From assembly GCA_026874595.1 (NCBI GenBank), contig CM049322.1:53719386-53783385 (forward strand): a stretch of 64,000 nucleotides of DNA. The letters are read 5' to 3'. Positions 14,055 to 55,101 of this stretch are shown here, piece after piece (within the stretch, counting starts at the first letter, position 1; every line of letters starts with the position of its first letter). This stretch comes from Sipunculus nudus. Its lineage: Eukaryota; Annelida; Sipuncula; Golfingiida; Sipunculidae. Both the position numbers and the translations under genes were made by a program. Under the pieces are notes generated by a model. That model was not told where the DNA came from. It did not search any database and saw only the letters and a list, made by a program, of their open reading frames with translations.

Positions 14055-17000
14055 ATGGCGCATGTGGGCGAGTTGCTGGTCAGTGGAGTCGGGAGGGCGG
14101 GCAAGAAAGCCGGTGCCTCGTGTCGTTTGATCTGTTTTAACTGGGCCGGGGGAGGGGCAGCTCACTATATAAGATGGGCCAGAGACTTCTCAGACGAAAT
14201 AGAAGGTAGGTATTGGATTTGGTGCCTACTGCGGCAGTGATGGCTCTGTACTGTAGTCTGTAGACAGTAATGTCAGTATAGACCATATATTATATAATAT
14301 ACTATACTGATATGGTGCAAGTCTAGAATTCAGGCTGCTGTTCTGGACACGTTGAGACACCATGGATACATGTGAAATGTTGTAATAATATATCCAGTTT
14401 ACTCCTTAGTAAGTTAATGGTATCCTATATCCTTCCCATGTATCTCTTACCCTGTAATAATGTACAATTTATCTTTCCTTCACGCAATTTAACATGCTCG
14501 TATCCGTCATGATTCCAACCTCTTGCTTGTTTACACCACTTGGCCTATGTGCACATGTCCTGCCTACATCATTCACATCCGTTGTCTTGCGCCCTCCAGG
14601 CATTTGTACGCACACACATCATGGATATATTTGGTGTATTTCAAGGGTTAGGGTTCACAAATAAAACAGTGACTCCACCTTGTCTGCGGGAAGCGCGAGA
14701 CGGAGTACGGTTTAGTGGAAGGCAGTTAACAAAGGGCTGAGGGTTAATTTTTCAAGCTGTAGCGACGTCAGGGTGCCCTGACGATGCATACGCTTGACAA
14801 AAATTAACCCTCATTTTAACAACTATGACCAATTCTCAAAAGTCGATTTAAATATCCCACTCGACCCCTCACACCCAACTCGTCTGCAGTGGCAGCGCAT
14901 AGGACTTGTTTATCCATGATTGCTGGTTTGAATCCCGGTGGAGAGCTTCTCAATTGCATGTTATGTGTACTAATAATTGCATTTCTCATTACAGGTTCGC
15001 CACTAGACGGAGACACAGATACATACGGCAGACATACGAACAAGAGACTAGAAACCATAAACATAGACACCAGAAGTTTTATTCATCGACTGAAACTCAA
15101 TGGCTCAAACAGCAGCCTGAATTCTAGATGTGCTCCGTGATATATATCACTGTATGCAGAGCCACAGGATAACAAGGCCCTACCTCTGTTACCTATACTC
15201 CCTTCCAGCACCCCTGTCCAAGTAATTTTTCGTGATAATTTTTATACAATGCACAATAGCTTACCTTTATTTACACCTGAGGCAAATGTGGCATTTTCGT
15301 AAAGTGATTCCTTCCTTCTACCTTTCCCCCTTCCTATCATAGTCAATCAGTCACTGCATGCCTTCAAGTGTAGAATGTCATTAATAATACACAGTATATG
15401 AAAGATGAATAAATATGACACTGCCAGATACGACTTGATCCATTTGTGGCCCTGTAGTATATACAGAGCCACAGACCACTGCCTTCATTTATCCAGCAGA
15501 CGGAAAGCATACAAAAGGTTGATGCAGCACTTGTTCTGAATACTTTTGACCCTGTATGTTGAATGCTTGTAAAGTGAGGTTTCGTGACTTTTCCAGCCAG
15601 CCCTTCTTTAGAACACTATTTTAGCTCAGGTGACTCTAAGTCAACTGAGCTATAGTTATGGTCCTTTGTCCAATAGCTGTCCAACCATCTGTCCGTCCGT
15701 CTGTCCCCTAAACTGGCACTTTTTGAAATCATTGGACCTACGAATCTGAAATTTGCCGTACATTTAGAGGCCCCATAATCTACTACCATATCAAAAATTG
15801 AGTCACTACGACATTGTTCCTTTGTGATATTAAAAAAAAAATGCTTAGTTTTGTATTAAATCCCATTGTCACACTTAAAGACTGCATTATATCAAAACAA
15901 CTAATTAATATAAATATTCCTCTATATATGTCCTATGTAGATACCAGAAATTAGTTCAGTATTGTATAAATTATTGAAGTTATGGTCCCAAACATAATGA
16001 ACTTTGTAAAAAACAGGAAAAATATTTGCTCACTATACATGAGAACTGATGTAGCTAGAGATTTTTTTTTTGCAAGGATATATCTTTATTTAATCAAGAT
16101 TCTATTGTATAACCAAAAAAGATCTGAACATTGCAATTTTTTTAAGTTATTAGCATAAATATAAAATGGCTATCTTAAATTTTGCCCAAAATATGCTATG
16201 GCATGTTTTTTTCCTGTGAGTACTTTTGATTTCACAGCATATACACAAAGGATTCAATCTGTTAAAATCTCAAATTTTAAAATAAAAGCTAGAAAATTAG
16301 TCTACTTATTGAATTTCTGTTTGAGGCTCTTATCCTATTCACTCAATTTCACTGGCACAGTGAAACTCCAGCCAGCCCACTTCTGGTCACTGGAGGTCAG
16401 CTGTGCCAGGGTACCTGATTTATCATGGGCCACTGGTGGAGATCCACTGCTGTGGCAGGTGTACATGCACTGAATCTCATACCAACCCACCAAGTGTTAA
16501 GCAGTAATTGTTATTGTTTAAACTGGATTTCCTGAACTGTATACTGTTTCCACTCCAATATACAAAACTTTTTTCTTGAGATAGGAGTAATCCAGAAGAT
16601 GCCATATTGTAACATATGTAGCATTGTAAAAGAAATTTATTTCTTTTTTTTTTTAATAATTTTTGGGGAATCAAAATATAGTTAAACCTATCAGTATGCA
16701 TAATTTGATAATATATGAGCCAAGTTATGGATATATATAGTGGTGCAATTTAAAATTGTGAATTCTAAATCAAATGTTATTGTATCCCCAGACAAAGTCG
16801 GGGGATACTATGTTTTCATACCGGTCCCGCCGCCGCCGCCGCATATAAATCTTGTTGGCGCGATAACCCAAAAAATATTTCACGGAACTTTACCAAACTT
16901 GGTATATGTATAGATATGGGTGAGAGGACAACGCCTATTTAAAATGAGGTCATGAACTTTACTAGGAGAGTGTCCTTGACCTTGAATAGGTCCAATTTTG

Positions 17001-20000
17001 GGGAAAATCACACAAATTCTTTAATATATCAAGAAATCTTGCATGGATTTATCCCAAAATCAAGTTGATGGAAGATCATGGATAGGGTTGTCATGTTCCA
17101 GAAACTGGTGGCGCCACCTATTATTCTTTACTTGTTTTTGTGCCGTTTAATACCCCCAAAATTGCCACCTTACAGTACTGTGAGCATTATAAGTTAAAAA
17201 CTAATGGACAGATTTCTTTTATATTATGCATATACAAAGGTATGGGTTATGGGATGATGTTTATTTAAATTGGGGTCATGACCTTTCCTATGATAGTGGC
17301 CTTGACCTTGAATATTGCCATATAGGGTGAAAATCACACACCTCTTATGATATCTCCAGTGTTGATAGCCATATGGATTTCAAACATGACTTATGTATGG
17401 CCCACCACTAAAGTAAGAACCCTATAGGTTCTAGGGTCATGAGGTCAAAGGTCAAGGTCACTGGACTGGCATTTTAAAAGATACTGTGGATGCATTTTAA
17501 GCCAAACTTTCATCTTAGGTCTTCCATCTTGAATATATAGCTCACTTGCCAGTAGTGGATGATCCATATAAATTTTGGGGTCACAAGGTCAAAGGTCAAG
17601 GCCACAGGAGCTATCTGTCCAAAAATTAGTTTCTGGATGATAATTCCTGCTTTTAATGATGTATTGATTTCAAACTTGACTTATATATGTCCCATTGAAA
17701 AAGCAAGACTCCAATTGATTTTGGGGTCACAAGGTCAAAGGTGAAGGTCACAGGAGCCATCTGTCCAAAAATTAGTTTCTGGATGATAATTCCTGCTTTT
17801 ATTGATGTATGGATTTCAAACTTGACTTGTATATGTCCCATTGGAAAAGCAAGACCCAAATTGATTTTGAGGTTATGAGGTCAAAGGTCAAGGTCACAGG
17901 ACACACCTTTAAAAAGATGTGGATGCATTTTCAGCCAAACATTTCATCTCAGATCTTTCATCTTGCACATATAGTTCACCTGCCAAGAGAGGAAGAACCC
18001 TATCAATTTTGAGGTCACAATGTCAAAGGTGAAGGTCACAGGAGCCATCTGTCCAAAAATTAGTTTCTGGATGATAATTCCTTCTTTTATTGAAGTATGG
18101 ATTTTAAACTCGACTTGTATTTGACCCTTTGGAAAAGCAAGACCCAAATTGATTTTGGGGTCATGAGGTCAAAGGTCAAGGTCACAGGAAACCTTTTTGA
18201 AAAGATTGTTGATGCATTTTCAGCCAAACAATTCATCTCAGATCTTTCATCTTGCACATATAGTTCACCTGCCAAGAGTAGAAGACCCCTATCAATTGTG
18301 AGGTCACAAGGTCAAAGGTGAAGGTCACAGGAGCCATCAGTCCAAAATTTAGTTTCTGGATGATAATTCCTGCTTTTACTGATGTATAGATTTCAAACTT
18401 GACTTGTATATGTCCCATTGGAAAAGCAAGACCCAAATTGATTTTGAGGTTATGAGGTCAACGGTCAAGGTCACAGGACACACCTTTAAAAAGATGTGGA
18501 TGCATTTTCATCCAAACATTTCATCTCAGATCTTTCATCTTGCACATATAGTTCACCTGCCAAGAGAGGAAGAACCCTATCAATTTTGAGGTCACAAGGT
18601 CAAAGGTGAAGGTCACAGGAGCCATCTGTCCAAAAATTAGTTTCTGGATGATAATTCCTTCTTTTATTGATGGATGGATTTCAAACTTGACTTGAATTTG
18701 ACCCATTGGAAAAGCAAGACCTGAATTGATTTTGGGGTCATGAGGTCAAAGGTCAAGGTCACAGGAAACCTCTTTAAAAAGATTGTGGATGCATTTTCAG
18801 CCAAACAATTCATCTCAGATCTTTCCTCTTGCATATATAGTTCACCTGCCAAGAGTGGAAGACCCCTATCAATTGTGAGGTCACAAGTTCAAAGGTGAAG
18901 GTCACAGGAGCCATCTGTCAAAAAATTAGTTTCTGGATGATAATTCCTGCTTTTATTGATGTATGGATTTCAAACTTGACTTGTATATGTCCCATTGGAA
19001 AAGCAAGACCCAAATTGATTTTGGGGTGATGAGGTCAAAGGTCAAGGTCACAGGACACATCTTTAAAAAGATGTGGATGCATTTTCATCCAAACATTTCA
19101 TCTCAGATCTTTCATCTTGCACATATAGTTCTCCCGCCAAGAGAGGAAGAACACTATCAATTTTGAGGTCACAAGGTCAAAGGTGAAGGTCACAGGAGCC
19201 ATCTGTCCAAAAATTAGTTTCTGGGTGATAATTCCTGCTTTATTGATGTATAGATTTCAAACTTAACTTGCATATGTCCCATTGGAAAAGCAAGACCAGA
19301 TTTGATTTTGAAGTCATGAGGTCAAAGGTCAAGGTCACAGGACACATCTTTAAAAAGATCAAGGTCACAGGACCAACATCTTTAACAAGATTGTGGATTG
19401 TTAGATGGAAGAGACAATGAATATGCCAAGTGTCAGTATATGCTGCTAAAAATGGGGGTCTATTTATAAAGGGGGTGGGGGCCTACTATGTCTGGGGATA
19501 CTCTGGCACCTGCGGTGCCAAGAAATGTCTAGTTTTCAGATATTGGTTGTTTTGCAAATTTATAAAATTTATGTATAACAGTCCTTCGACTGGGTTCAAA
19601 AGAAAAGGGGAAGTGTCCTCTCTCTTCCATCCACGAACAAGCAAACGACCGACGTGGTGAACGGGTTTACTGCGAAGTAACAAACATACAATGATTATGG
19701 CGTGTTCCCATTACGAAGTTTGGTGACGGAATCTCATCTTTTTCTATTACAATGGAATTTTATATATAAATATTGTGGTAGTTACAATCCAGAGACATTT
19801 TAAGAAATACAATATTCAAATGCAAATGGGTTACAAGCAGTGTTACAGAATGTCATTAGACAAACGCACTATAATACAAAAGTACAGTGGATGCTCTTGT
19901 GAAGACAAATATGAGGCTTGATCGAGTGTTATAATACAAGACCGAAAATTATAAAATGAATTACGCCATTGACACACAAACCTTGATATTTGTAATAATC

Positions 20001-23000
20001 TTGTACAAAATTACGAACGCAAATAATAATGACTATCGTAGGCAATGAAGGCAATGCTTACCTGCGAAGTAACAAACATACAACAATTATGGCGTGTTGC
20101 CATTAAGAAGTTTGGTGACGGAATGGCGCAAAAATGAAGAATATTGAAGTCGTTTGTGCGGCAGAGTCAGATGTCAGGTGCAGTGTGACGTGTGCATATT
20201 AGATAAGTGAACTTAACCCTATAAGGAAATATATGCAAATGACTAATTAACTAGTGATGCCACCTGTCGGACATCATAGACACTAAAATGACCTTAAAAG
20301 ACTATAAATGGGGTGCCCTCTATTGGGCATCACTTACACTATTGAAGTATACACATGAGCCTGTTACATATGTCTTAAAAAAATTAATACATCTGTGTGC
20401 ATAATGTGATGTTATCTGATAAAATTATTGATAAATGTTGATGCAGTCAAGAACTGTGAATCAGCTTATATATTCAGTTATATATGTTATATTGCAAATG
20501 TATAAACTTGATAAACAATGTGATCTTATGCAAATATATTGCCCATTATTTTCCTGCTTAAGCAGAATATGAAATTAAATGATTGGCTATGTTGTCTGTC
20601 TCTCAGTCTATTTTTAAATATTTTATAGTTATGAATCAACCTTTTTCTTATAAGCACCTTAGAATTAAATTTCTTATCCTGTGTGTATATATACATGTAT
20701 ATGTTACTCCCACCATTAACCCCCCCCCCCCCCCTTGCCATTGTCCTTGCACCTGTGGACTTGGTGATAAGTTTTATTGCAACTATTTTATCAGTATATA
20801 AATGTGAAGTACCTTTATTTGTATAGGACCAGGATGAAATCTAGAAACCACACCGTTAACTTGTTGCTAAGACATTAGTGTTAGTATCAGAATTTGGTCA
20901 AATCAAGGATCTAAATAAGTAATATAATCTGCATGATTTCAGTGCTGGCAGTACGACTGCCAGGGAGAGAGGTCCGGTTGAGGGAGCAGCCATACACAGA
21001 TGCCGCGTCACTTGCCAGAGACGTCGCCAATTTAGTCAAAGACCAGTACTCTGATAAACCATTTGCATTTTTTGGTCACAGGTGAGTGCACCAGAATTAA
21101 ACTGTAAATTGTCTTGAGGTCTTTTTATATTAATAATTCAGTTAAAGGTTAGTAAAACATATTTTATAATAAAGAGGCATGAAGAGGCAATTCCCAAGTG
21201 GAAGAGTTAGTCAACATCTGACCATCTGGCCATATGCAAAGGTGCAAGCTCAGTTTGCAGTTGTCATTTTGGTGCTATGCATGGGTAGACTTATTAGCCA
21301 GGAGAATCTTAAGCATACACAAGATACAGATTTATTTCAAGTACATTATAGTTATATCTATTAAAATGTGGTATTGGCTGGCAAAAGAAAATGGAAATTA
21401 AACAGGCTATTTTCAGTGATGCAGGACTTTATTATGGTCTTGAGTCATCTCATTCATTGACTCCCCGAGCTTACTTGGATTGGAGGGCCCTGCATTTAAT
21501 TGGACTTATACTTCAACATGAAGTTTAGGACTGCATGTAATATATCCTTTAGAGAAATGCTCTGTTGCATACAATAATGACATAAAGCTACTTACATAAA
21601 ATACAGAAAATGACTTTATATATCAAGCCTCTCATCTGCATCAGGATGAAAATAAATGTAATTAAACATTCAGGTAAAATACATGTGTAAACAAGCAAAA
21701 TAAATATGTAAATCTCAAATTCTGTTTTTAATTTCTTTTAATAAGGAGAATTGTAACAGACTCAGACTTGGACTCGGTGCTCTATATGATTCAATCTCAA
21801 AGAAGGTGGACTTGGACTCGTGTTCCATATGACTGAGGCTCAAAATCGGTGGACTTTGACTTTAACCTCAAGGACTAGGACTTGGACCCATTATCCATAC
21901 GACTTGGACTCAAAGAAGGTGGACTTGGACTTTAAACTTTTGGACGCATATTCAAGTGGCGTGGGCTCGGACTTGCACCCAGACTTTACTACATCACTCT
22001 TAGTTATTATTGTATCCGCCAAAATGAAGTTTTGCGGATACTATGTTTTTGACCGGGTTCCGCCGAGGCGGCGGCGGCCGCGTTCATTTCCGGAGAACTC
22101 CTCTGAGACTACTGGACGGATTTTTCCGAAACTAACACAAATTATTGGGTCACATGTGAACTGGTGCCTGACCAAGTGGCCTTGACCTCTGACCTCTCTG
22201 CCCAGCGTCCATTTGTGCGTCTGTTTCCATACATAAACCCACATATCTCAGAAACCGTTTGACCGATCAGGGAAAAAATTTTTACACAAATGTAGCCCTT
22301 AGACAGCTTTATAACATACACAAAAAAGGTGGCACCACCTGCAACCATGTTTGCACAGTGTCCATCTGTTCATCTGCCTTGGGTTAAAATCGCTCATATC
22401 TCTGCAGTGGTTTGACTAATTCACCTAAAATTTGACATGCATATACATCCTAGATAGCTTTCTTGATTATATGACAGGTGGCGCCACCTTCATTCATGTT
22501 AACACTGCAGACATTAAAGCTCATATCTTGGTAACCGTTCGACCAATTAGGAAAAATTTTTTTACACAAATGTAGCCCTTGGATAGCTTTATAACATACA
22601 CAAAAATGGTGGCGCCACCTGCAGCCATTTTTGCACAGCGTCCATCTGTTCATCTGCCTTGGGTTAAAATCACTCATATCTCTGCAGTGGTTTGACCAAA
22701 TTACCTGAAATTCGGCATGCGTATACATCCCGCATAGCTTTCTTGATTTTATGACAAGTGGCGCCACCTACATTCATGTTCACGCTGTAGACATCAATGC
22801 TTATATCTCCGGACTCATTTGACCAATCAGGAAAAAAGTTTTACACAAATGTAGCCCTTGGATAGCTTTATAACATACACACAAATGGTGGCGCCACCTG
22901 CAGCCATTTTTGCACAGCGTCCATCTGTTCATCTGCCTTGGGTTAAAATCACTCATATCTCTGCAGTGGTTTGACCAAATAACCTGAAATTCGGCATGCG

Positions 23001-26000
23001 TATACATCCTGGTAAGCTTTCTTGATTTGATGACAGGTGGCGCCAGCTTCATTCACGTTCACACTGCAGACATTAATGCTTATATCTCCGGACTTGTTTG
23101 ACCAATCAGGAAAAAAAAATTACACAAATGTAGCCCTTGGATAGCTTTATAACATACACAAAAATGGTGGCGCCACCTGCAGCCATTTTTGCACAGTGTC
23201 CATCTGTTTGTCTGCTGTGGAATAAAATCACTCATATCTCTGCAGTGGTTTGATTTTTCCACCTAAAATTTTGCATGTGTTCTAATTCTCTTTGCCACTT
23301 AATCCATGCCTCACGTCACCCGTCCTACTATGATTTTGGCGGATACACGTTGTCGCTTGTCGACTACCCGTATTCTAATAACTGGTGAGTGGTAGTAGAA
23401 AGGAGGAGACATTCTTGAGTGGCATTAAAAAGAGACCACACACTTGATATTTTTTATTTTGACGGAAATTGGGGAAAAAGTTTTATGGAATTTAAATAAT
23501 GTGTAAAACTGTATTAATTTCCTTTAAAAAATATAATAACAAAATATAAGAAACCAGTCTTATTTATTGGTCATCTAAACAATACTACTTCAGCAGTTAA
23601 TAACATAATGAAGGAATTGTGTAATTTATTCTAAAAGTGATTTTTGTTACATCATTCCTATATCATTCCACAAAAATGAAAGTTAGATCATGGAAGTCTT
23701 GGTTAAATATCCAAAAGACTACAGATCTTAATGTAACTGCTCTTTACAACTAATTACTATTGTCCCAAAATTAAACCATCTGAAATTGTCTGCTGGTCTG
23801 GATTTTTAAAATAAGTACTGAATAAAAAACATGCTTGGATGACTATTGGTTTTGGAAAAGAGTTAAAAATATAAGACATGCAAGAAGTTGTATATAAATT
23901 AACCATTTGATATATCTTTTACAGTTTTGGATCTCACACATCTCTTGCTGTATCACATTACTTGAAAGTTCACCACCAGATGGAGCCAGTGCACCTGTTT
24001 GTTTCTGGAGCATATCCTCTATTTGTAAGTAATTTACAGTGAAGTTTCATTCATTAGAACACAGTCTATTAAAAAGGACATTTATCCATAATTTAAACTT
24101 GAGAACCCAAATTTTGACTATTTTATACAAACTTTTTACAAAAGTTAATTTGTTTATCTGAAATTATTATTTATTGAATCGGAAGGACAGATTGTCATAT
24201 GTGTATTTACAACTTATTAATGCTTGCATCATGGCACAATTTTATTTTGTGCATGACCACTCATCTGAACATTCATTTATCCCAACAAAGCATCGTATTG
24301 CTTGTTGATTGCAGAAAAAGTTGTAAGCTGCAGTTCATTTTTTCATAACATGTAAAATGTTACTTTTTAACTGTTTGTCAAAGACTTTTTAAATTCTATA
24401 AATAAAGTGCAAGTCAATAAAATCAATAAAAAAACTACACTTTTTTAGAGAATATTGTAAAATATATTGTAGATAAATTTTTTAGAGAGTTCAGGGATTA
24501 TTGAGGAGAATGATCATAGCTTACAGGCTTAATGATTAAGATGGGATAAGTAATTCTGCCGGTCAATTTATCAGACATTAAGGCATTCTAGTGTGTCCAC
24601 ATACTACATGCAGTGTTATAAATTCCAGGAGTCCCTGGGTAAATGTTGTTAAATTATAAACAAGGGACCCATGGGTCGTGGTGCTAAGCTGAGTTTAGTC
24701 AACTCTTGGCAAATTCAAAATTGACTTATTTCTGTTATTATACATTTTTTATCTATTTTGCATTGGAAAAGCTAATAGGAACTGGTCCTGCTATTTGATG
24801 AGAATCAACTACTTAATAAACTAGAGGTCTGCTAGTGCCCCCCCCCCCCCATCTTCTTGACTAAATTCAGCTGAGCTAAAAAGTGTATCCTGCTTTTGGT
24901 GCGTTTTCTGTCAGTTTAAAGCCCTACTTCTGACCCTCTTCCGTAAAAGAAATCCTGGCCATTTGGCATGCACAAACACGTGGCCTATACACTGATTATA
25001 ATATTTTAAGTGAACATCAACACCCTTGATGTTAATACTCAAGTTGACGACATAGTACACTGGCATATTTCCCCAGGTCATACTAAACATAAATGATGCC
25101 ACAACAATAAAGCCCTTGCATGTTCTGGTTGTGTGCTGTTTGGCCTGAGACCCCACAGCCAGCTGGATTACAGGTCCTTTAATTTATGTTTTAAGAGTTA
25201 TTGCTGCAAAGCTGGATTTTCTTTATTTTATTTATCATACCTTTTTTTATACATGTAAATTGATAACCTGCAGCAATATTTCATTTTATTTTTGGTGTGG
25301 AAGTAATTTAATGCAAATTGCAGTCCACTGAGTTGGTCCATGCATTGTAAAATTTGTTTGGGAAGTTTCAATTTTGAAATATAAGAATTTATGTATAAAG
25401 TCATAATATCTCTGTGTCTGCATATCATCACATGATTGTATACTGGTAGTAACAATTATTTTTATCTTTGTAGACTGAAGCAGGACAGCAGGTTCTTCAG
25501 TCTCGGTTACCCCCATCACAGGATGACGATGCGTTCATAGAATACCTCAAAAGACTTGGTAATACATATAGACTCTTTTCATTCCAGTGTTATTCACTCT
25601 TTACATTTGAGAACTGCATTAAGCTCAACCAAACTTGAAAGTCAGCAATCTCTGAGGTGGCCATCCTTTTGTTGTTTTAATATAAATGTTGGTCATTCCT
25701 TTTTGATGCCAAAGATTTTTGTGGCATCCCTATGAGAAATTTATCAGAGACTCATGGATGTGTTACTTCCCTAATGAATATTCATATTTTTGTAAGTTTG
25801 TTGTCATTATCAAAATGCGGACCCACCTATATATACTTGCATTAATTTTTACCTGATTTGAAAATAGATATTATGTAATGAACGGGTATGGATGTCACAA
25901 AAAGTCATAAAAAGTAACCAGGCATCTCTATATTACCTACTCAGTTAAAGAATACATATAATACTCAGGAATTTCTAGCCTTAAACATACAAAATGTTTT

Positions 26001-28833: not shown

Positions 28834-29405
28834 AAAATACACCTCTGTAATCTGGATAAAAGGAATATCACAACTACAAAAAATACACCCCTGTAACCTA
28901 GACAAAAAGAAATGTCACTGCTACAGAAATACACTTCTGCAACCTAGATAAAAAGAAACTTTGCAACTACAGAAATACACCCCTATAACCATGATATTAG
29001 GAATATCACAACTACATAAAAACACCTCTGTAACCTAGATAAAAAGTAATTTGCAACTTCAGAAATACACCCCTGTAACCTTGATATAAGGAATAGCACA
29101 ACTACAGAAATACACCCCTGTAACCTTGATATAAGGAATAGCACAACTACAGAATACACCCCTGTAACCTTGATATAAGGAATAACACAACTACAGAAAT
29201 ACACCTCTGTAACCTTGATAGAAGGAATATCACAACTACAGAAATTCACCCCTGTAACCTTGATATAAGGAATAGCACAACTACAGAAATACACCCCTGT
29301 AACCTTGATATAAGGAATAGCACAACTACAGAAATACACCCCTGTAACCTTGATAGAAGGAATATCACAACTACAGAAATACACCCCTGTAACCTTGATA
29401 TAAAT
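28834..29405 (+). repeat. 45-bp minisatellite directly after the OLAH stop codon
   Basis: About 12 copies of a 45-bp unit with the core ACAGAAATACACCCCTGTAA, spaced 44-45 bp (for example 29063, 29108, 29153, 29198, 29243). The first unit starts within 5 bases of the OLAH TGA, so it forms the proximal 3' UTR. Because 45 is a multiple of 3, long repetitive minus-strand frames arise by chance. Confidence 0.95.
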
Positions 29406-29987: not shown

Positions 29988-30312
29988 ATCCTGTTTACTT
30001 ATATATCATAATGGAAAAATTATAACTGACTTTGAATTGAATTTGCCATCAAATTTCCAGTCATTTCATACGGAATGAGTTGGGTCATTCCAAGCACATT
30101 TAATTAAAGGATGGATGGTTGCATGTGAAGAAGACACACAGCTTCACAGCTTATCTAAAGAAGCCCATTCCAATTAGTCAGAACTGAGTAAATATTAAAA
30201 TCTGTACATTCCTGACCATAGGCATTAATCATTGCTGCCATTCTGGACTTTATAAAATAAGAAGAGCCCATATCTTGCAGGAAAAAAAGTACAGAACTGT
30301 ATTAAAAAGTGC

Positions 30313-30383
30313 TCCCTGTTAGCTCAGTGGTAGAGCAGACGACCGGCAATCGGAGGGTCATGGGTTCGATTCCCATACGGGGT
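30313..30383 (+). repeat. tRNA-derived SINE head, copy 1
   Basis: A 71-base tRNA-like block: acceptor arm TCCCTGT with ACGGGGT, D arm GCTC-loop-GAGC, T arm ATGGG-TTCGATT-CCCAT. Box A (TAGCTCAGTGG) and box B (GGTTCGATTCC) are perfect. The anticodon stem has only about three pairs and position 33 is C instead of U, so it is not a working tRNA. The shared 3' flank TTTTTCTGTGTATTCTTG is the same as in copy 2, which marks it as a SINE. Confidence 0.8.
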
Positions 30384-30617
30384 GATCCGACTTTTTCTGT
30401 GTATTCTTGTTCTAAATCTCCATGAGATGGACCAGCATGACCATTCAACATCTTTGTATATAATATTTGATGCACACCATAAAAGGCCATCAGTTTATCA
30501 CTGCTGCATGCAAAGTCGCCGTGTCGACACAGGTAGTATGTATAATACCAGTCACAGTAGTGACGCCACTTCGCTGGTTCCTATGAAAGTGTGCTGATAC
30601 ACAGAGGAAGTTGGGGA

Positions 30618-30688
30618 TCCCTGTTAGCTCAGTGGTAGAGCAGATGACCGGCAATCGGAGGGTCATGGGTTCGATTCCCATACAGGGG
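30618..30688 (+). repeat. tRNA-derived SINE head, copy 2
   Basis: Second copy exactly 305 bp downstream of the first. The acceptor stem is better here (TCCCTGT with ACAGGGG), and box A and box B are unchanged, but the anticodon arm has the same defects. It is followed by the same body sequence. Confidence 0.8.
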
Positions 30689-31213
30689 GATCTGACTTTT
30701 TCTGTGTATTCTTGTTCTAAATCTGTATGAAAAAGTATATATCATCACCAAAGTGTTGAACGTTTTGCACAATTTTACAGTGTGCTGCTTCAAGAGATGC
30801 AAAAGGTTTGACATTTATCACTTATTCAGGATTTATAACACATGATTCCTCTGTATTTCATATTTCCGATAATTTTGATGAGCCAATATTTTAACATTTT
30901 GCTATCCTGAGTTGACAGAACATATTGTTTATGTTATTATATGATTATATGACTCCAAAGTACCATAATTATCCTGAAGATAAAGATTTGAACAATACCT
31001 GAGAGTATGGAAAAAGTATACTTTTAAAAAAGCGTAAAGTGCCAGCACTAATTAATTTCAATGTCTTTACTTATGTGATAATTTTGATAAAATGTTTAAA
31101 ATTATGAAGAAGCAGTTAAGTGTGGTTTGGATAAAAGCGGCTCAACTATATCACAAATCTCCTGTGTTCTGACATTGTTTGATCAAAAATGTCATAGGAG
31201 TCTGTTAATTGTA

Positions 31214-32473
31214 TCGCCAGACATAGTCTGGAGATACTATGGTTTAGGCACGGTCGCCACGGTCGCGCCGCCGCCGCAGAGATTTCTTTTGGACACAATA
31301 ACTCAAAAAATATTTCACGGATCTTTACCAAACTTGGTATATGTATAGATATGGGTGAGAGGACGACGCCTATTTAAAATGAGGTCATGACCTCAACTAG
31401 TGACCTTGACCTTGAATAGGTTCAATTTTGGGGAAAATCACACAAATTCTTAAATATCTCAAGAAAACTTGCATGGATTGATCCCAAAATCAAGTTGATC
31501 AAAGATCATGGATAGGGTTGTCATGTTCCAGAAACTGGTGGCACCACCTATTATTCTTTACTTGTTTTCATGCCGTTTAATATCCCCAAAATTGCTACTT
31601 GACAGTACTGTGAGCATTATAAGTCAAAAACTAATGGACAGATTTCTTTCATATTATGCAGATACATAGTTATGGGTTATGGGATGATGTTTATTTAAAT
31701 TGGGGTCATGACCTTTCCTATGAGAGTGGCCTTGACCTTGAATTTTGCCATATATGGTGAAAATCACACAAAATCATTAATTTCTCAATAAGGGATGCAT
31801 GCATTGGTCCAAAAATCAACTTGACCGAAGATCTTGGATAGTAATGTCATGTACCGGAAACAGGTGGCGCCACCTGTTATTCTTTTACTTGTTTTCGTGC
31901 CGTTTAATACCCCATCATTGCCATTTATCAGTACTGTGAGCATTATAAGTCAAAAACTAATGGACAGATTTCTTTCATATTATGCATATACATAGATATG
32001 GGTTATAGGATAATGTATATATAAATTGGGGTCATGACCTTTCCAATGAGTGGCCTTGACCTTGAATATTGCCATATATGGTGAAAATCACACAAAATCA
32101 TTAATTTCTCAATAAGGGACGCATGCATTGGTCCAATAATCAACTTGAACGAAGATCTTGGATAGTGTTGTCATGTACGGTAAAAAGGTGGTGCCATCTG
32201 TTATTCTTTTACTTGTTTTCATGCCGTTTAATACCCCATCATTGCCACTTAACAGTATTGTGAGCATTATAAGTCAAAAACTAATGGACAGATTTCTTGC
32301 ATATACATAGACATGGGTTAGGGGATGATGTATATTGAAATTTGGATCATGACCTTTTCTATGAGTGTGGTCTGATATTAATTGTTGCTGAAGATGGGGG
32401 ACCTATTCTTAAAGGGGGGGCGGATTAATTGTCTGGGGATACTATGGCACCTGCGGTGCCAAGAAATATCTAG
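31214..32473 (+). mobile_element. Helentron-like element, family 1, intergenic copy
   Basis: Starts TCGCCAGAC folding with GTCTGGAGA, ends with GTCTGGGGATAC (32431-32442), hairpin GGCACC-TGC-GGTGCC, AAGAAATAT and CTAG (32470-32473) before TT. It shares the first approximately 600 bp with the OLAH intron copy but has about 300-bp repeats of another type ('GTCAAAAACTAATGGACAGATTTCTT') instead of the AGGTCA array. Confidence 0.8.
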
Positions 32474-41300: not shown

Positions 41301-44300
41301 AAAAAAAAAATTTTAAATGTATCATGTAATGGACCATGCAGGTGCAGGCACAGTTCAACAAACTGCAGGTCAGCAAGGTCACAGGTTAACTAGCTCAAAG
41401 GGAATTCCTACTCAAGTAAAATCATATCACAAAAATACCCAAAAGTGACATAGGAAAATGGGAATTAGAATATAGAATAAACACTTGGTTACAGCAGAGA
41501 AAACAGGAGACATGCATATTTTGAAAAGGTTGTTTTCAAGTTGAGCAGATCTTGGGAAAAATTTATTTGATGATTCTCAAGTTACAGCAAAAGATAATTA
41601 AGAATCTAAATGTTTATGATTATCAATCTGATTAACCCAGATTTGTCAATAATCTCTGAGTTCCAGTGGGCACAAAAAAGTACACACCTGAGCCAGAGTA
41701 TACGAGTAGTCAGTAGTGTTACTTGTCAGGGTCTCCATTTCTTCCAGCCAACACTGTAATAATACAAAGATCACATGTCATACCCCTTTCACACACAAAA
41801 CACTTTCAAATCTATTTGGGCAAAATGGTTTGGTCAAACCTTTTTGGTGCGTTCACATGGCATCTAGCACCAATGTGTGTTGAGTACATTTCGTGTGTGG
41901 AACAATGTAACAACATGCTGACACAAGCATTCATGACTGAGTTGCTGCTTGAAAAAATGAGTCTAAATAGTTTTAGAGCATTCACACAACAGTTAAACAA
42001 AGCAGATAAAAGGATTCTCATTCAAAATGGTTTTAAAAGACCTCCAGAGCTTGATCCAAAATGCTTTGGCCAAAACAGTTCGAAAACTCTTTGGATTGCC
42101 GTGTGAATGCTCTAAAAGGTTACCAAACCGTTTGAAAATGGTTTGCATTTGCCGTGTGAATGGGATAGTAATTCTGTACTACAAAGTATCAAATACTGCC
42201 ATGACTGCAGTACAGTACTGTTATATCAACATACAACATTCTGTTATATCAGAACCAAATAAAGCACAGTGCATTATTAAATACTTGGACTGGAGTACTC
42301 GTTACCAAAGCAACAGTACATTTCAACAAAAATATTGTACGGCAAAAATATGCTATAAATTTATCTAGAGGCTTCTAGAAAGATTTGACGATGTAAATGT
42401 ATGGCACTGAAGAGTTAGTGATCCTTAAATAAATTGACTTATTATGAATAATTACATGTAATTACAAATGTATATTCTGATATGTGAGCATGCACATGTA
42501 AAAGGAGTCTTAGGTAATTTAATTTGGTTTTGATTAATGTTATATATTTATTTTAACTAAAATACTTGGCATCTCCTATCAGCTATATTAGGGGTACTTG
42601 AAAATAATATTGAATGTTATTACACAAACACCTTTCCAGACTAACCTCAATAGGTGCCTTGATATTAAAATCATGGTCTGGCAGTGCTTTTTCTGAAAAA
42701 AAATCACAGGAGTCAGCAGTATACAAATTATTCCCTTCAATTCAGATAAGCTGATGTTATCTTATTATTTTGCAACTAGATATTCACTATGCTTTTTTCA
42801 ATGGAAACCAAAATAATGTTTTCAGATGAAAAGACCATATGCTGTGTTAATTCTTGTTACTGGTCATGTGTGTCTGTCTTATAATGGGTTCCACCAACCT
42901 GTTTCCACCTGTTTCTTGGAGATAATTTTCTTTAAATTTTTAATTTTTCAATAATTTCCCAATATGTCACATGAGCTCCACCGGCATCAAACCCTTGTTC
43001 ATTCTTTATTAAGGTTTTTTTTGCCTAACATTACATGTATGCCTAATATAGGGTTTAAATAAAAAAAAAAAAACCCTATATTGTGGTAGGTGACACCCTT
43101 GTCCTGTCTGAAGATGCTTTATTCCAATTTGCTCTGCTGCTCTACAACAACAGTTGTGGTTTCAAACATTTGACACCCCATCTGGCATATCCCCTATTGG
43201 CCTAAATTTGACTGGGAATACAAAAACAGCTTGAGCTAATTCCATTTCTAACCTCCCCCCCCCCCCCCCAATTATATGTGATATAGGGTCTGATGCAGAT
43301 TGCATTTCTGTGTGAACAACAGAAATTATAAAAGGCTGTAAAATATAATAATGATTGGCCTTCTTTAGAGCTCATATTATTTACTGTCAGCTTAGCTATA
43401 AGGTACTAACACCACCTGTTACATTTTCTTTAATTAACTTACCTTTGTTCCTCAGCCGTAAACGGTCCATGTACTCTTTTACCTGATAAAAAAAGAGAAA
43501 AGTATAATTAATTTTATTTTCAAATGAAGTTAACAGCATCCAAAGTGAGCATTACCAATTCAACCATGGTTTTTTATATTACATCAGAAATGTTATATAT
43601 TCTTATTATATAAAATGAAATAGCATCTGATGTGTGGAGATAAAACCTGCTCTGTAAAGATTAAACCCTGCACTGAGAGGATGATGCTTTGGAATGTTAA
43701 CCTAAGTATTGCACCTCGGAACTTTTTTCAGGAGTGCTGTATGCTGACTTGCTGCCTCATCTTTTACAGATTTACTATGTTATGTTGACATTGGCACAAG
43801 TGCAAGACTGAATTAAACTAGAATACTGGTAGTCGACAAGCGACTACGTGTATCCGCCAAAATCAGAGAAGGACGGGTGAAGTAAGGCATGGATTGAGTG
43901 GCAAGGGGATATAGAGTTACATGTGTTAAATATTAGAATGGATCTCTGCCACATAAACATGATTGTAGGTGGTGCCACCTGCTATTTGAAACTATCCAAG
44001 ATAAATACACAAGCAAAATTTCATGTGGAAAAGTCAAACCACTGCAGAGATATGAGTGATTATATCCCACAGCAGGCAAACAGATGGACGCTGTGCAAAA
44101 ATGGCTGCAGGTGGCGCCACCATTTTTGTGTATGTTATAAAGCTATCCAAGGGCTACATTTGTGTAAAAAATTTTCCTGATTGGTTGAACGAGTCCATAG
44201 ATATAAGCATGGATGTCTACAGCGTGAACGTGAATGTAGGTGGCGCCACCTGTCATAAAATCAAAAAAGCTATGCGGGATGTATAAGCATGCTGAATTTC

Positions 44301-47114
44301 AGGTAATTTGGTCAAACCACTGCAGAGATATGAGTGATTTTAACCAAAGGCAGACAAACAGATGGACGCTGTGCAAAAATGGCTGCAGGTGGCACCACCA
44401 TTTTAGTGTATGTTATAAAGCTATCCAAGGGCTACATTTGTGTAAATATTTTCCCTGATTGGTCAAACGGTTCCCGAGATATGAGCTTGGATGTCTGCTG
44501 CGTTAACATGAATGTAGGTGGCCCCACCTGTCATAAAATCAAGAAAGCTATCTAGGATGTATATGCATGCCAAATTTTAGGTGAATTAGTCAAACCATTG
44601 CAGAGATATGAGTGATTTTAACCCAAGGCATATGAACAAATGGACACTGTTCAAACATGGTTGCAGGTGGCGCCACCTTTTGTTGTGTATGTTATAAAGC
44701 TATCCCAGGACTACATTTGTGTAAAAATTTTTTACGGATCGGTCAAACGGTTCCAGAGATATATGGTTTTATGTGTAAAGGGTTAACGTGAATGTAGGTG
44801 GCGTCACCTGTCATAAAATCAAGAAAACTATCTAGGATGTATATGCATGCCCATTTTTAGGTGAATTAGTCAAACCACTGCAGAGATATGAGTGATTTTA
44901 ACCCCAGGCAGATGAACAAATGAACACTGTGCAAACATGGTTGCAGGTGGCGCCACCTTTTGTTGTGTATGTTATAAAGCTATCCCAGGGCTACATTTGT
45001 GTAAAAAATTTTTCCGCATCGGTCAAACGGTTCCCGAGATATAAGGGTTTATGTGTGGAGCGTTAACGTGAGTGTAGGTGGTGCCACCTGTCATAAAATC
45101 GAGAAAGCTATCTAGGATGTATACGCATGCCGAATTTTAGGTGAATTAGTCAAACCACTGCAGAGATATGAGTGATTTTAACCCCAGGCAGATGAACAGA
45201 TGGACAATGGCAAACATGGTTGCAGGTGGCGCCACCTTTTGTTATGTATGTTATAAAGCTATCCCAGGGCTACATTTGTGTAAATTTTTTTTCCGGATCG
45301 GTCAAACGGTTCCCGAGATATATGGGTTTATGTGTGGAAACAGACGCACAAATGGACGCTGGGCAGAAACGAAAGGTCAGAGGTCAAGGTCACTTGGTTA
45401 GGTACCTGTTCACATGTGACCCGATAATTTGTGTAAGTTTCGGAAAAATCAGTCCAGTAGTCTCAGAGGAGTTCCCCAGAAACGAACGTGGCGGCGGCAG
45501 CGGAACCCGGTCAAAAACATAGTATCCGCAAAACTTTGTTTTGGCGGATACAATAAATGGATACTTAATTTAACAGTGACAAAAGCAAGCTGGTGACGAA
45601 GTGCTGTTCCATACTGTACCAAGAAAATTTGCATCACCCACCTCATTTGTTTTCTTGGTTGGAATACAGCGACTTATCTTGTTTAGGTCTGTCTGGCCAT
45701 ACCTGAAAAGGAAAACGGGTATACATTATTCACTATATATTAAATAGATATATATCTATATATAGTTTAGGACTAGAAACTACATGTGTTTTACAGCATT
45801 TTACAAGGTGTGTGTGTTTGTATTTTTACTTAAATATTGCTGGGTTCAGATTTAAGCTGTGTTTTCTACTGCTGTTTGCTTATACATATTCATGACAAAC
45901 AAACATGCATGTATTATAACATATCTACTCCCTCTGCTCCTCTCAAAAAATCAATAAACCAAAAATAAAAAAGTCTGGTCTAACTTGGGTGATAATGATT
46001 CACTGGTGAGCAATATCGCATGACACAAAGCAAATAATCAAACTGGTATCATAAGATGTTCCTGCACTGATAGGCTGATGATATTTGATCATTTGATGAG
46101 AAGTGACATCTGACATTTAAAATACTGCCAAGCCTTAGCACCATGTAACACATTAAAAGTGAAATTTCACTCGTAAGAAAAATAGTTGAAAGACATCCTT
46201 ATGACTAATTGTTTGTTAATAAAATACATTTATGGTTTAAAAATACATTTTGCAAGAGTAAATTTATTCAAATTTCCATATACAAAATAAAAATTCACCT
46301 TGGAATGTAATTATTTATATTAAATTATCATGTGTCATATATTGTATTGCGTATTATATGGTGAGTAAAGGATAGTGGAACCCCACAATTACAACCACCT
46401 TGCAGACTGACCATAGTGGTTATAATTTAAGGGTGGTAATAGTTGTGAAATTCTGGATACCTGGTCAATATATCTGGGACCAAGAAAAGTTGTAATTGTC
46501 TGGCGATTGCAATTATGGCGTGGTCTCAAAGCAGGGTTCCACTGCATCGAGATATGTATCATATGGTGGGATAATGTATGGTTACAGCCCTTGGTCTAAT
46601 GTTGTATTGTGAGATAATATACAATTACACTCCTAGGCCTAACATCCTATTGTGAGATTCTGTGGGGTTACAGCCCTAGGTCTAATGTCAGATCATGATA
46701 TAATGTATGATTACAGCCCTAGATCTAATTTTGTATAGTTACATATCATGGTCTGACTTCATATCATGAGATAAAGTACGGTTACAGCTCTAGGTCTAAC
46801 CTTTTTACAGCCTCCAGCAGCCACTGTTTCTCTTCAATTGTCCAGTTATTGGTCCTCCTCCAGTCACACTTCTTTATCTTGTATAAGTCCATGTTATCCG
46901 CTTCGTATTCATCATCACATACTCTCTTTCTCCTCTCACGCTGGCTCCGCCTGGTGGAGGTGGGGTCTACTGGCTTTCTCTTTCTTCTCCGTTTTGTTGT
47001 TTTCTCAGACTCCCCTGGCTCAGTGCTGCCATCTTGTGTGGGTTTCTCTGTATTACATGTTGTATCTTCCTCTGCATTTGTGGCAGTTCCTTCCTTTGAC
47101 CTGGTAGCTGCCAT
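35381..47114 (-). CDS. SNAPC2: snRNA-activating protein complex subunit 2 (SNAP45), complete, enlarged
   Basis: Nine coding exons on the minus strand with matching phases: 47114-46801, 45702-45642, 43482-43443, 42692-42646, 41753-41688, 40788-40656, 38736-38566, 38040-37591, 36099-35381; 2001 nt, 666 aa. Recognised by a basic N-terminal region (RRRKRKP, RRSQRERRKR), a Myb/SANT-like helix start NNWTIEEKQWLLEAVKR near residue 89, the KAPIECWLEEMETLT segment like human APIEVWTDLAEKIT, IYQFLVSLL with DAAVILDLLESL, and a C-terminus SINPLCIPIPLLN like human PLNPFLVPLELLG. SNAPC binds the proximal sequence element of snRNA promoters for pol II and pol III. Human SNAPC2 is about 334 aa; the surplus is a Ser/Thr/Ala/Pro-rich exon 8 and a repeat-bearing exon 9. 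Start is the ATG in GAAAATGG; a possible acceptor just upstream (GATTGCAG) may mean a separate 5' UTR exon. Confidence 0.88.
35596..35940 (-). repeat. 108-bp coding minisatellite in SNAPC2 exon 9
   Basis: The DNA repeats with 108-bp period (CTGGTTATCAG at 35693 and 35801; GTGGCAGTG at 35598 and 108 bp on). It encodes about three 36-residue units, each two 11-residue PPDQx-x-D-x-QA motifs plus a 14-residue SEK.TATPDNQA motif. The frame is preserved. Confidence 0.9.
37386..37569. mobile_element. MITE-like element in SNAPC2 intron 8
   Basis: The ends ACGGTTACACCTGTGTTATCAG and the reverse of CTTTCAGACAGGTTTAACTGTA form an imperfect inverted repeat. The inside has repeated 'GGTCTTA.TAGACAGGTGGTCTTAT' words, also seen near 38331-38460. 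Confidence 0.5.
38960..39580. mobile_element. MITE with about 30-bp inverted ends in SNAPC2 intron 6
   Basis: Left end AGTCTGTTCC then GTACCCCTGTCCACCTG; right end is CAGGTGGACAGGGGTAC then GGAACGGATT. The 621-bp body is shared with the copy at 52162-52752, and a fragment of the left end occurs near 15199. It has no coding potential. Confidence 0.8.
41783..42164. mobile_element. MITE with ATA flanks in SNAPC2 intron 4
   Basis: Left end CCCCTTTCACAC, right end GTGTGAATGGG, flanked by ATA on both sides (41780-41782 and 42165-42167). Related words (AAAATGGTTTG, GTGTGAATGC) occur inverted inside. The 3-bp duplication would suit PIF/Harbinger elements; that class is a guess. Confidence 0.65.
43818..45549 (-). 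mobile_element. Helentron-like element, family 2, in SNAPC2 intron 2
   Basis: Reverse-oriented. The 5' hairpin is TCCGCCAAAA with TTTTGCGGA (near 45522-45549). The 3' end has an inner GTATCCGCC terminus (43850 on), a perfect stem GTAGTCG-loop-CGACTAC (43829-43847) and CTAG (43818-43821) beside TT on the minus strand. Five tandem units of about 279 bp (landmarks at 44110, 44388, 44666, 44946, 45225) each hold GGTGGCGCCACC-type palindromes. It fills about 80% of the intron. Confidence 0.85.
46374..46543. mobile_element. 170-bp MITE-like element in SNAPC2 intron 1
   Basis: Ends AGTGGAACCCC and AGGGTTCCACT are inverted. The interior is AT-rich with repeated 'GGTTATAATT/GTAATTGTC' words. A similar left end (CAGTGGAACCC) starts near 603 in the ETFB intron. 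Confidence 0.6.
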
Positions 47115-47510
47115 TTTCCTGCAATCCAGCAAAATAATACAAGGACCAGAATAAGGGCAGTTGACCAGCCAATTTAGAACTGTCCCTTTTTATCTTGTTT
47201 TGATTGTAGGTTGTCCCCCACATTTTTACCCTCTGCCATTATGATCCTACAAATGCCTTGTGGCATTTTGCTTTAAAACATTTGATCTTGGTGACACTTT
47301 GTTCCCAGATATCATTTTCTGTGGCATTTTGTGAAGGACACTTTGTTCTGATGGCATTTTGTTCCTGGAGACACCGATGACATTTTTATCCTCATTGGTC
47401 TTGATGCTCAGCTGAATTTGTCTACAAGGATATGTTTATGAGCTTTTTAAAAAGATGGGTCTTGTCATCAGTTTGAAGCCAACCTGTCTAACCATCCAAA
47501 CTGGAGTTAT
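47115..47510. other. SNAPC2 upstream sequence
   Basis: The likely promoter side of SNAPC2. It contains a loose repetition of TGGCATTTTG/TTGTTC words at 47255-47385. No TATA box or clear core element is seen. Confidence 0.4.
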
Positions 47511-47519
47511 CATCAATAA

Positions 47520-48080
47520 ACAAAATTTGTGAATGAATGGGCCCTGTGACCCTAACACTTTTACCTAGTGACCCCAAAACAAAACATGCACCACATGTGG
47601 AATACAGAAGGTTTGCGATGTAAAGTTTGGCTTAAAATATCCACAATCTTTTTAAAGAAGTTGGTTCTGTGACCTTGACCTTTGACCTCATGAGCCCAAA
47701 ACCTAAAGGGTTCTCATATAATTGGCTGGTCATATATAAGTCAAGAAACTATATGTCAAACCAAACTGGAGTTATAAGAGGTCAGATGGCTCCTGTGACA
47801 TTGACCTTTGACCGCCAGACCCCAAATCAATCAGGTTCTTCCCCTGTTGAGAGGTCTGAGCTCTCATATGTGCAAGATGGAAGGTTTGGGATGATTAGTT
47901 TGGCTTAAAATGCATCCACAATCTTTCTAAATAAGCAGGTCCTGTGACCATGAATTTTGACTTCATGACCCCAAAATCAATAGGATTCTTGCATTAGAGG
48001 TAGGCCAAATATAAGTCAAGTTTGAAATCCACGTCAGTCCAAACTGAAGTTATCATCAGGTAACAAATGTGACAGACAAA
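47520..48080 (-). repeat. Family 1 type repeat fragment with inverted AGGTCA motifs
   Basis: On the minus strand it carries the same body as the OLAH intron array (on the plus strand: GTGACCTTGACCTTTGACC followed by CATGA.CCCCAAAATCAA). It has about three diverged half-units at roughly 140-bp spacing. No Helentron termini were found. Confidence 0.7.
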
Positions 48081-50508: not shown

Positions 50509-51130
50509 ACCTGAGGGAATAAATCTACAGTACTTTAAAAGTTATGGGGTTCACATAAATTACATTTTTGGCATAGTTGACCTTCAGTATCAAGGTCAAG
50601 GTGATAAGTTTTCTGAGAATTAACGTAGTCAAACCTGAGGGAAAAATTTGCGATAAAAAAATTCATTGGTTTCATAAAACTCTTATATTTTGAATTATAT
50701 AACCTTCACAGATTTGATGCTGTAGATCAAGGTCACCAGTTTCAGACTTCTGTAAGAACTTTGTCAAAACTACTGGTGTGTCAAATTCACAGTAAAGGGG
50801 TTTACAAAAATATATATTTCGTAATATTTGACAATCCAGATCAACGTAAGGGGCTCAAGTTGTTGATGGTCCAAGAACTTGGTTGAAACTATACATTTAC
50901 AAAATTTGAAGAAGAAATATTTGCAGTGCTTCAAAACTTACAGGGTTCACAATAATCCTTTATTTACACTCATTCAACCTTGGAGATCCAGGTCAAGGTC
51001 TCCAGTTTTCAACTTATTATCTGAGATATTTAATTTTGATTTTCAGAACCTTCCATCTATCTAAAGAATTTTAAGATTTGTGTTTTTCATCAAATATGGA
51101 ATTACTCAAGGTCAAGGCCACATTCTTGGA
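50509..51130 (+). repeat. Diverged tandem repeat of about 124 bp
   Basis: CCTGAGGGAA-type landmarks at 50511 and 50635. Several degenerate units follow, with AAGGTCAAGGT words and 'TTTACAAAA/GGGGTTCACA' blocks. No gene. Confidence 0.6.
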
Positions 51131-52161
51131 AAAGATACTGGTCCCCACGTGAGCAGGATTCTTCTACTGATCCATATCTAATCATGTGCACAGAATGAAT
51201 AGTTATTGAATAATATTGCTTGCACTATTGCCAATTTGCAGTGATGGTAGAATGAAATGACACAAAAACAAGAAAAGGACTATAGGTGGCACCACAAGTC
51301 TTCTGTACAAGACAAAGTTATCCAGAATTCTCAGTCGGTCCGATTTTCAGACAAAGTTATCAGGACTTTTTATATCATCAAGAAAAGGTAATATATTCCC
51401 TGTATCCTTTCATAAAACACCCCTCCTTTACTTAAAGTTGACTAACCCATCTACATCCTTGTGATAAAGTAAGCTGGCTTGTCTGAAAGAGGGAGATTTA
51501 TACTTGACCACCAGCTGGCCAAAAGGGAAGGAGGCCTCTGTCAAACATAACATGCCTCCACCCAAATCTCTGTATTCTAAAATAGATGCTTTCCCAAGGA
51601 CTGGCAGGATGAACATTTTTGGCATATTAATAACGGTCATTCAAACTTCTCTGAGATATTTCAGTCATTTGTAAATGTAAAGCAAAATAAATGTGTAGTT
51701 GAATCTTATCTGTGGAGGCAATCATGCAAGATAACTGTGCTTACGGTAAGTTTCAGTCAGAAATCAGTTACACTTTATATATTGTTTATCTAAACAGTTG
51801 ATTATCAAACAATCTGTTTCTCAAAAAAAACCTGAAAACAGAAATCAAGGCAGTTTATTTTAAATCTGCTCAAGAGGATGATGTTGAAATTTACACCATT
51901 TATGACAGGTTAATTGTGACTTCTTCATATTTCCTATCATCTTGTATATTAAAGTTTTAATAATAACTCATCACTATTATATGGCTGCACTCATCCTGAT
52001 TTAAGCATTGTGATACTGACTGAAGCTTGTCTGAACCAAATGATGATGTATAATAATGATATATCCAACATAATCATAAAATTTGATTAATGCAAAAGGA
52101 TTGGTTGTGTTGCTACCACAAAGATTATTTGGTATATGTTTTAATGTATATATAATTATAT

Positions 52162-55095: not shown

Positions 55096-55101
55096 TTTAT
55101 T
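55096..55101 (-). promoter_or_regulatory. AATAAA overlapping the ERCC6L2 stop region
   Basis: The minus strand reads TGAATAAA: the stop codon TGA and a polyadenylation hexamer share bases. If used, the 3' UTR would be only about 20 bases. Confidence 0.4.

Follow-up and report, generated by a model that had tools for sequence, protein, structure and literature searches.

Does an array of nuclear-receptor-like sites inside a gene of lipid metabolism serve that gene, the mobile element that carries it, or neither? The question arises from the window, i.e. the whole stretch of 64,000 nucleotides analysed here (C17:53719386-53783385; the assembly comprises 1.43 Gb in 153 contigs, C1-C17 measuring 61-111 Mb and C18 52.5 kb), and from an earlier interpretation of its letters (the sequence-only reading), which had placed a repeat array packed with such sites within a fatty-acid thioesterase gene, OLAH. 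This placement is confirmed: six OLAH exon pieces, when joined, match PDB 4xjv ('S-acyl fatty acid synthase thioesterase, medium chain') with an E value of 2.7e-32, and the array is flanked by exons 1 and 2 and thus lies in intron 1.

The array is the central part of a larger repeat. The interval 17430..19385, to which attention had originally been drawn, captured the array and left out both ends of what we call element A, a complete HINE (non-autonomous Helentron; Table 1). The earlier suspicion of a Helentron-type repeat is borne out by 12/12 complementary positions between the subTIRs (13/13 in the related element C), by a 5′ inverted repeat, a 3′ palindrome and a CTAG|TT end. The inverted arms of element A occupy 16782-16801 and 19482-19501, and its 5′ end reads GTATCCCCAGAC-AAA-GTCGGGGGATAC, followed by the CCG-rich segment. 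As read from occupied sites, the insertion borders of four copies are ..T|TGTATC or TTGTATC on the 5′ side and CTAG|TT on the 3′ side.

Table 1. Features of the OLAH intron 1 element, its array and its relatives in the window.
Feature	Position	Strand	Remarks
OLAH exon 1 (coding part)	14055..14205	+	ATG 14055, GT donor 14206
OLAH exon 2	about 20.94-21.08 kb
Element A, complete HINE, OLAH intron 1	16780..19532	+	ends, arms, element B match
5′ subTIR GTATCCCCAGAC and inverted repeat GTCGGGGGATAC	16782..16808	+	element A
CCG-rich microsatellite-like segment	16821..16845	+	left flank of element A
Segment akin to the 326-bp units of element B	16904..17340	+	element A
Central array	17422..19349	+	14 monomers of types A (146 bp) and B (142 bp), one box each
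Box cores	17442, 17586, 17732, 17878, 18020, 18166, 18309, 18455, 18597, 18743, 18886, 19032, 19174, 19319	+	exact AGGTCAAAGGTCAAGGTCA at 17442, 17878, 18166, 18743, 19032, 19319
3′ subTIR GTCTGGGGATAC	19490..19501	+	element A
3′ palindrome GGCACCTGCGGTGCC	19505..19519	+	element A
Terminal CTAG	19529..19532	+	element A; then host TTTT
Element B	31209..32473	+	ends as in A; three 326-bp units; no 146-bp array
Element C, second HINE family	22010..23378	+	subTIR GTATCCGCCAAAA; box-free 279-bp array
Box-like site of element C	22177-22195	-	single, near 5′ end
Element D, family of C	43818..45553	-	last 60 bp 92% identical to C
Box-like site of element D	45374-45392	+	single, near 5′ end; reverse to element
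Relic E, old dimer-array copy	47503..48068	-	no element ends; long array matches 69-72% identical
Relic F, 326-bp-type fragments	51076..51324	-	71-79% identical

Element A has several relatives in the window. Elements A and B have common ends, with an identity of 89% across 573 bp of the 5′ part and of 88% across the last 60 bp. Element B carries no box array. Elements C and D contain arrays of 279-280 bp units. Two further copies, L033 and L041, were met in the sample described below, and the last 60 bp of A, B, L033 and L041 show identities of 0.83-0.95 in all six pairs; the four fall within the published subfamily rule of 80% over the last 60 bp (PMC4067079). As a separate observation, the palindrome GGTGGCGCCACC occurs both in the 326-bp-type sequence of A and B and in the 279-bp units of C and D (positions include 17107-17118 and 22477-22488), forming a second short box common to otherwise unalike repeats.

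Within the window, the 19-mer AGGTCAAAGGTCAAGGTCA has 18 matches at up to three mismatches, against a chance mean of 0.01 (maximum 1 in 100 shuffles). Fourteen of these lie at 17442-19337, all on the + strand, six being exact and eight carrying one or two mismatches; the 'about twelve' copies in less than 2 kb of OLAH intron 1 that had been claimed are thus real and slightly more numerous. The remaining four are found in related elements, at 22177(-), 45374(+), 47670(-) and 47796(-). Tandem repeat analysis (TRF) of the array returned a period of 146 bp (12.3 copies, 63% matches) and one of 288 bp (5.7 copies, 91% matches), and the better unit of the array is a dimer of two monomer types. When the array is cut at the boxes, types A and B mostly alternate: 6/7 B monomers contain the exact 19-mer, and six of the seven A monomers have G for C at box position 12, four of them without any other change. 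Beyond the box, the consensus of A and that of B align barely better than shuffled sequences (31/500 shuffles were as good). The box itself measures about 22-33 bp, is built of AGGTCA direct repeats and matches both AGGTCA-N-AGGTCA (DR1) and TCAAGGTCA, the ERR/SF-1 consensus; the overlap of a DR1 site with an ERR/SF-1 extended half-site in one 19-mer, also part of the sequence-only reading, therefore holds at the level of sequence match. The 14 copies form one array and therefore represent one amplification rather than 14 independent events, and for this reason copy number was dropped as evidence.

The proposal that this repeat family spreads the motif is upheld by the genome-wide count: the exact 19-mer occurs at least 22,468 times (11,219 + 11,249), or once per about 63 kb, against 0 for the reversed control. 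Among the first 100 places listed, 60 show the dimer spacing, 16 were assigned by a rule for a spacing of about 1.3 kb, four have other short spacings and 20 stand alone. The 1.3-kb stretch in L046 is a different tandem repeat, with AGGTCAAAGGTCAAGGTCAAGGTCA, following a Helentron-like left end, and the variant with A to G at position 1 and a CACAG tail is present as at least 826 exact 22-mers genome-wide (one single-base variant was counted). A sample of 190 kb (19 stretches at preset positions) gave 17 matches at up to three mismatches, 15 in L033 and two in L041, both copies of element A's family. In the 254 kb formed by window and sample, all 35 such matches fall inside a mask that marks similarity to elements A-D and covers 6% of the sequence; 18 belong to the window, itself the source of these elements. 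Outside the mask, 11 DR1-like sites at one mismatch were seen against 1.2 expected, several of them located in other repeats, and 18 TCAAGGTCA words against 3.0 expected. Of the 14 TRF rows in these 254 kb whose units measure 100-400 bp, ten lack all four receptor-type sites tested, which rules out the box motif as a trait of all arrays in this sequence.

Other repeats met on the way deserve a brief description, the ends of L008, L035 and L046 having been read by eye. L046 (C1:290800-294200) combines a tandem unit of about 1.3 kb with a Helentron-like left end, a TCTG/TTTG microsatellite and AGGTCAAAGGTCAAGGTCAAGGTCA, and L050 (C1:323000-323500) is about 80% identical over 401 bp. At C1:1405488-1421903 exact boxes stand in groups that recur every 2.6-2.9 kb, which equals the length of an entire element; these are perhaps complete HINEs joined head to tail, as rolling-circle replication could make them. 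L035 shows apparent inverted DNA-transposon ends at about 5800-5860 and 9360-9430, each with the DR1-like AAGGT(G/C)AAAGGTCACC, and in another repeat of L035 (690-1330) AGGTCAGAGGTCA-type sites recur in successive units.

A scan of genome contigs for the box yielded 11 stretches. Three of them resemble animal contaminants that carry HINE-like box arrays: L002 and L003, catalogued with a Bacteroidetes MAG, and L008, catalogued with a Bathymodiolus symbiont. Of the two families, one is probably from a mussel. The HINE of L002 and L003 has subTIRs complementary at 11/12 positions, a palindrome and 147-bp monomers containing the AGGTCAAAGGTCAAGGTCA 19-mer plus CACAG, and in L008 the box core occurs twice, 158 bp apart, between HINE-like ends. 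All BLAST HSPs between element A and these loci (E up to 0.05) overlap the box on both sides (89/89 for L002, 106/106 for L003 and 26/26 for L008, i.e. 221/221), the best containing 23-24 identical bases; identity between the families amounts to 22-24 bases at the box, with monomers that otherwise do not align. Against L046, 13/13 HSPs of element A overlap the box, and since some reach 30 bp upstream at about 77% identity, a remote common origin of the two is possible. Other short sequences are also held in common: L002 and L003 each have one left-flank segment of 25-26 bp in common with element B (84-85%), and elements B and C have GGTGGCGCCACC. These loci show that the box can be all that two families have in common; having been found through it, they do not tell how frequently this happens. 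Box conservation is biased in L002, L003, L008 and L046-L057, all of which were fetched for the box. The bases common between families extend beyond the motif to a TG before it and a CACAG after it, and the conserved unit is for this reason larger than a DR1/ERR site. We know of no receptor sequence that corresponds to the CACAG tail. As judged by eye, the box runs forward relative to the element in A, L002 and L046 and in reverse in C/D and L008.

The other eight stretches were set aside. L007 (Firmicutes MAG) is a bacterial repeat, L004, L005 and L009-L012 are isolated or short-repeat occurrences of the box, all judged on about 90 bp of context (more for L004); L006, judged on more than about 90 bp, lies at the end of a possibly eukaryotic contig. 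A separate scan of viral contigs gave one match, L001, which is isolated. At L007 5111-5206 the 19-mer appears twice in a GGTCAAGGTCAAAGG-rich repeat, suggesting that it can arise in unrelated bacterial repeats.

Whether the box has been retained by selection was approached through the four arrays not chosen by their box, those of element A (winA), L033, L041 and relic E (winE), with 32 monomers; note that the window itself had been flagged for the motif, that the A-type monomers of relic E fell below the score threshold and were dropped from the decay comparisons, and that at the lower threshold of the window ranking one more relic E monomer entered as type B. Mismatches to the type consensus numbered 16/608 in the 19-mer and 315/3949 outside it, a pooled count that includes inherited subtype differences, so variants were split into those common to two or more arrays (shared) and the remainder (private). 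In B monomers (n=17) there are 0 shared variants at the 19 box sites against 37 over 123 outside (Fisher p 0.0036), and private variants number 8 against 71, or 0.025 against 0.034 per cell (p 0.50); A monomers (n=15) show no deficit of shared variants, with 2 over 19 box sites against 16 over 127 outside (p 1), and 4 against 53 private ones (0.014 against 0.028 per cell, p 0.23). These p-values are rough, as shared variants and not sites were the input of the Fisher test and monomers are not independent. Addition of five box-chosen arrays gave 0 against 78 shared variants and private rates of 0.0138 against 0.0145 for B (n=46), and for A (n=43) 3 against 33 shared variants (p 0.41) and private rates of 0.0061 against 0.0154 (p 0.04). 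Motif decay in older copies as fast as in neighbouring repeat bases was, in the sequence-only reading, part of what would refute its proposal. In this partial check the private changes of B monomers are about equal inside and outside the box, and A monomers show no difference in shared variants, but those of B are missing from the box.

When 19-bp windows are ranked by divergence, no other window of the B monomer is as low as the box (0/87), and none of the L002/L003 monomer is (0/92, for loci chosen by their box). In the A monomer the box is not the slowest, 9/91 windows being as low (18/91 with all nine arrays). A 22-mer of the B monomer outside the box is found at least 7,283 times genome-wide, against the count given above for the exact 19-mer, which covers all families. 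In the first 1.6 Mb of C1, 25/44 monomers picked by this exact outside 22-mer keep the exact box, and 25/60 dimer-spaced monomers picked by the exact box keep the 22-mer; two more exact boxes at offset 37, beyond the range used, would raise 25 to 27 in both counts (by eye). The survival advantage of the box over one well-conserved outside word is thus modest. A set of 53 boxes, small in number and including 18 from L002, L003 and L008 and 28 from loci not chosen by their box, has changes at the core Gs (positions 2, 3, 9, 10 and 15), an unchanged DR1 spacer (position 7) and an invariant TCAA at positions 4-7; neither a half-site-specific substitution pattern nor a concentration of changes where receptors tolerate them was found in it. 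Taken as a whole, the case for constraint is moderate: the B monomers provide good evidence, the A monomers none. The absence of shared variants from the B box, next to private changes that are as frequent inside as outside, suggests that the box is retained during the spread of the element and left to decay later, and the similar private rates give no sign of a host preserving single copies.

These data bear on a role of the array for OLAH, which is not supported. With one exact site per about 63 kb, an insertion in OLAH is unremarkable, and presence in a metabolic gene needs no explanation; location in a lipid gene was dropped as evidence because of this density. Element A lies in OLAH probably by accident, and an effect on the gene is possible, with nothing in the analysis of the sequence to indicate one. 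Fourteen DR1-like sites about 3.4-5.3 kb past the start codon would suit a copy co-opted to enhance or silence OLAH under receptor control, and we nonetheless hold this to be very improbable, for individual copies show no sign of preservation in the comparison of private and shared variants, and a chance location is likely at such a density of elements. The reading towards which we lean, at somewhat less than an even chance, is that the box may be maintained because it helps the element to propagate, DR1/ERR-type receptors being plausible candidates for binding it, and that its OLAH location is chance. The box would then do something for the element during amplification and be left to decay after insertion; its likeliest job would be that of a landing site for host nuclear receptors of the HNF4/RXR/COUP-TF or ERR/FTZ-F1 type, which recognise DR1 or extended half-sites such as those in the box, and whose landing would keep donor copies accessible in the germ line or early embryo. 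Consistent with this are the complete HINE anatomy, the abundance of the exact 19-mer in the genome with a reversed control of 0, and the dimer spacing of 60 of the first 100 places; selection during copying of the element is suggested by the lack of shared box variants, and the mixed orientation of the box between families fits a double-stranded site for a host factor. According to the account in PMC3252374, the HNF4 site is AGGTCAxAGGTCA (DR1) with CAAAG as the more relevant core, which the invariant TCAA would fit. The same set of boxes, however, varies at the core Gs and is fixed at the spacer. Selection on half-sites would not leave such a pattern, and this counts against receptors, as do the CACAG tail common to the families, the unconstrained A monomers, the modest survival advantage over an outside word, the TRF rows devoid of sites and the occurrence of the 19-mer in bacterial repeats.

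Nearly as likely as the receptor reading, and doubtful by the same token, is that the box is kept for a reason at the level of DNA, being a short, repeat-rich motif that helps array monomers to exchange, homogenise or rearrange in the manner of a CENP-B box, its likeness to receptor sites then being a coincidence of AGGTCA repeats. The varying core Gs and constant spacer, which weaken the receptor reading, would suit such a motif, as would a common stretch (TG..CACAG) larger than a receptor site and the position of the box as the common joint between otherwise unalike monomers. Elements A and B, with common ends and different arrays, point the same way, as does the mosaic at L041 2990-3980, in which two box monomers lead into 279-type sequence and then into an A/B-type 3′ end. 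In the oyster, monomer clusters with two conserved segments and a dissimilar remainder have been described in a study that also refers to work in which motifs resembling the CENP-B box promote the rearrangement of arrays (PMC7492417). Against this stand the ten of 14 TRF rows without tested sites and elements C and D, which carry the motif once and outside the array, where exchange between array units would not maintain it. We think it unlikely that the box has no function at all, having been present by chance in an ancestral monomer and copied along, with its conservation due to sampling, shared descent and low mutability: the lack of constraint on A monomers, private changes in the B box as frequent as elsewhere, the modest difference in paired survival and half-site bases that are not specially spared all agree with it, yet it leaves unaccounted for the 22-24 identical bases between families whose monomers otherwise do not align, and the 0 shared variants at 19 box sites of B monomers against 37 over 123. 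Also unlikely, in our estimation, is a wider version of the receptor reading, in which Helentron families of several animals would keep a composite of DR1, DR0 and extended half-site in either orientation so as to be opened by host receptors during amplification, seeding tens of thousands of sites that could rewire hormone or lipid networks.

The architecture of element A is already known from the Pacific oyster, where Cg_HINE has a 5′ subTIR with an inverted repeat and a microsatellite, a central satellite-like array, and a 3′ subTIR with a palindrome (PMC7492417). The likeness extends to an apparent TT-type insertion, to array monomers of 138-181 bp in the oyster, to related flanks enclosing unrelated arrays and to conserved segments between dissimilar monomers. 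Two alternating monomer types with a common AGGTCA box are what sets element A apart; in the main text of the oyster study the word 'receptor' occurs only in a BMP-receptor reference, and a receptor-like box is not described there (PMC7492417). Terminal structures, an apparent TT insertion and the 80% rule over the last 60 bp link element A to the Helentrons and HINEs, including DINE-1, of PMC4067079, and its central array and box distinguish it from DINE-1-type HINEs. The ISX helitron of Drosophila miranda spreads sites for the MSL complex, for which binding and selection have been shown (PMC4384637). Like it, element A is a rolling-circle element that disperses a motif, here a putative host-factor site; it differs in motif and factor. 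Abundant transposons with nuclear-receptor-type direct repeats are also found among Alu elements, which are reported to carry HNF4 sites, with HNF4 binding tested on microarrays (PMC3252374), and DR2 retinoic-acid elements (PMC1785376). Unlike element A, Alu is a retrotransposon without satellite arrays. Among the best matches in the open-licence literature, searched also by sequence letters, we found no paper that describes such a box within a transposon.

Should the box work as a receptor site, this genome would owe more than 22,000 perfect composite sites to a rolling-circle transposon, and single insertions, with a dozen or more boxes in one array, could serve DR1-binding receptors as strong sinks or enhancers. 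As a rearrangement motif, it would instead offer a clear case of a short box that is kept when the rest of a satellite monomer has diverged beyond recognition.

We also would like to record three features of the window outside these elements. Directly after the last OLAH exon lies a 45-bp minisatellite of 12.6 copies (28835-29403; TRF). Two tRNA-Ala (GGC) genes follow about 300 bp apart on the + strand (30312-30385 and 30618-30689), both above the Rfam gathering score. On the - strand, an SNF2-family reading frame runs uninterrupted for 1055 codons (55101-58268), its top PDB match being DNA excision repair protein ERCC-6.
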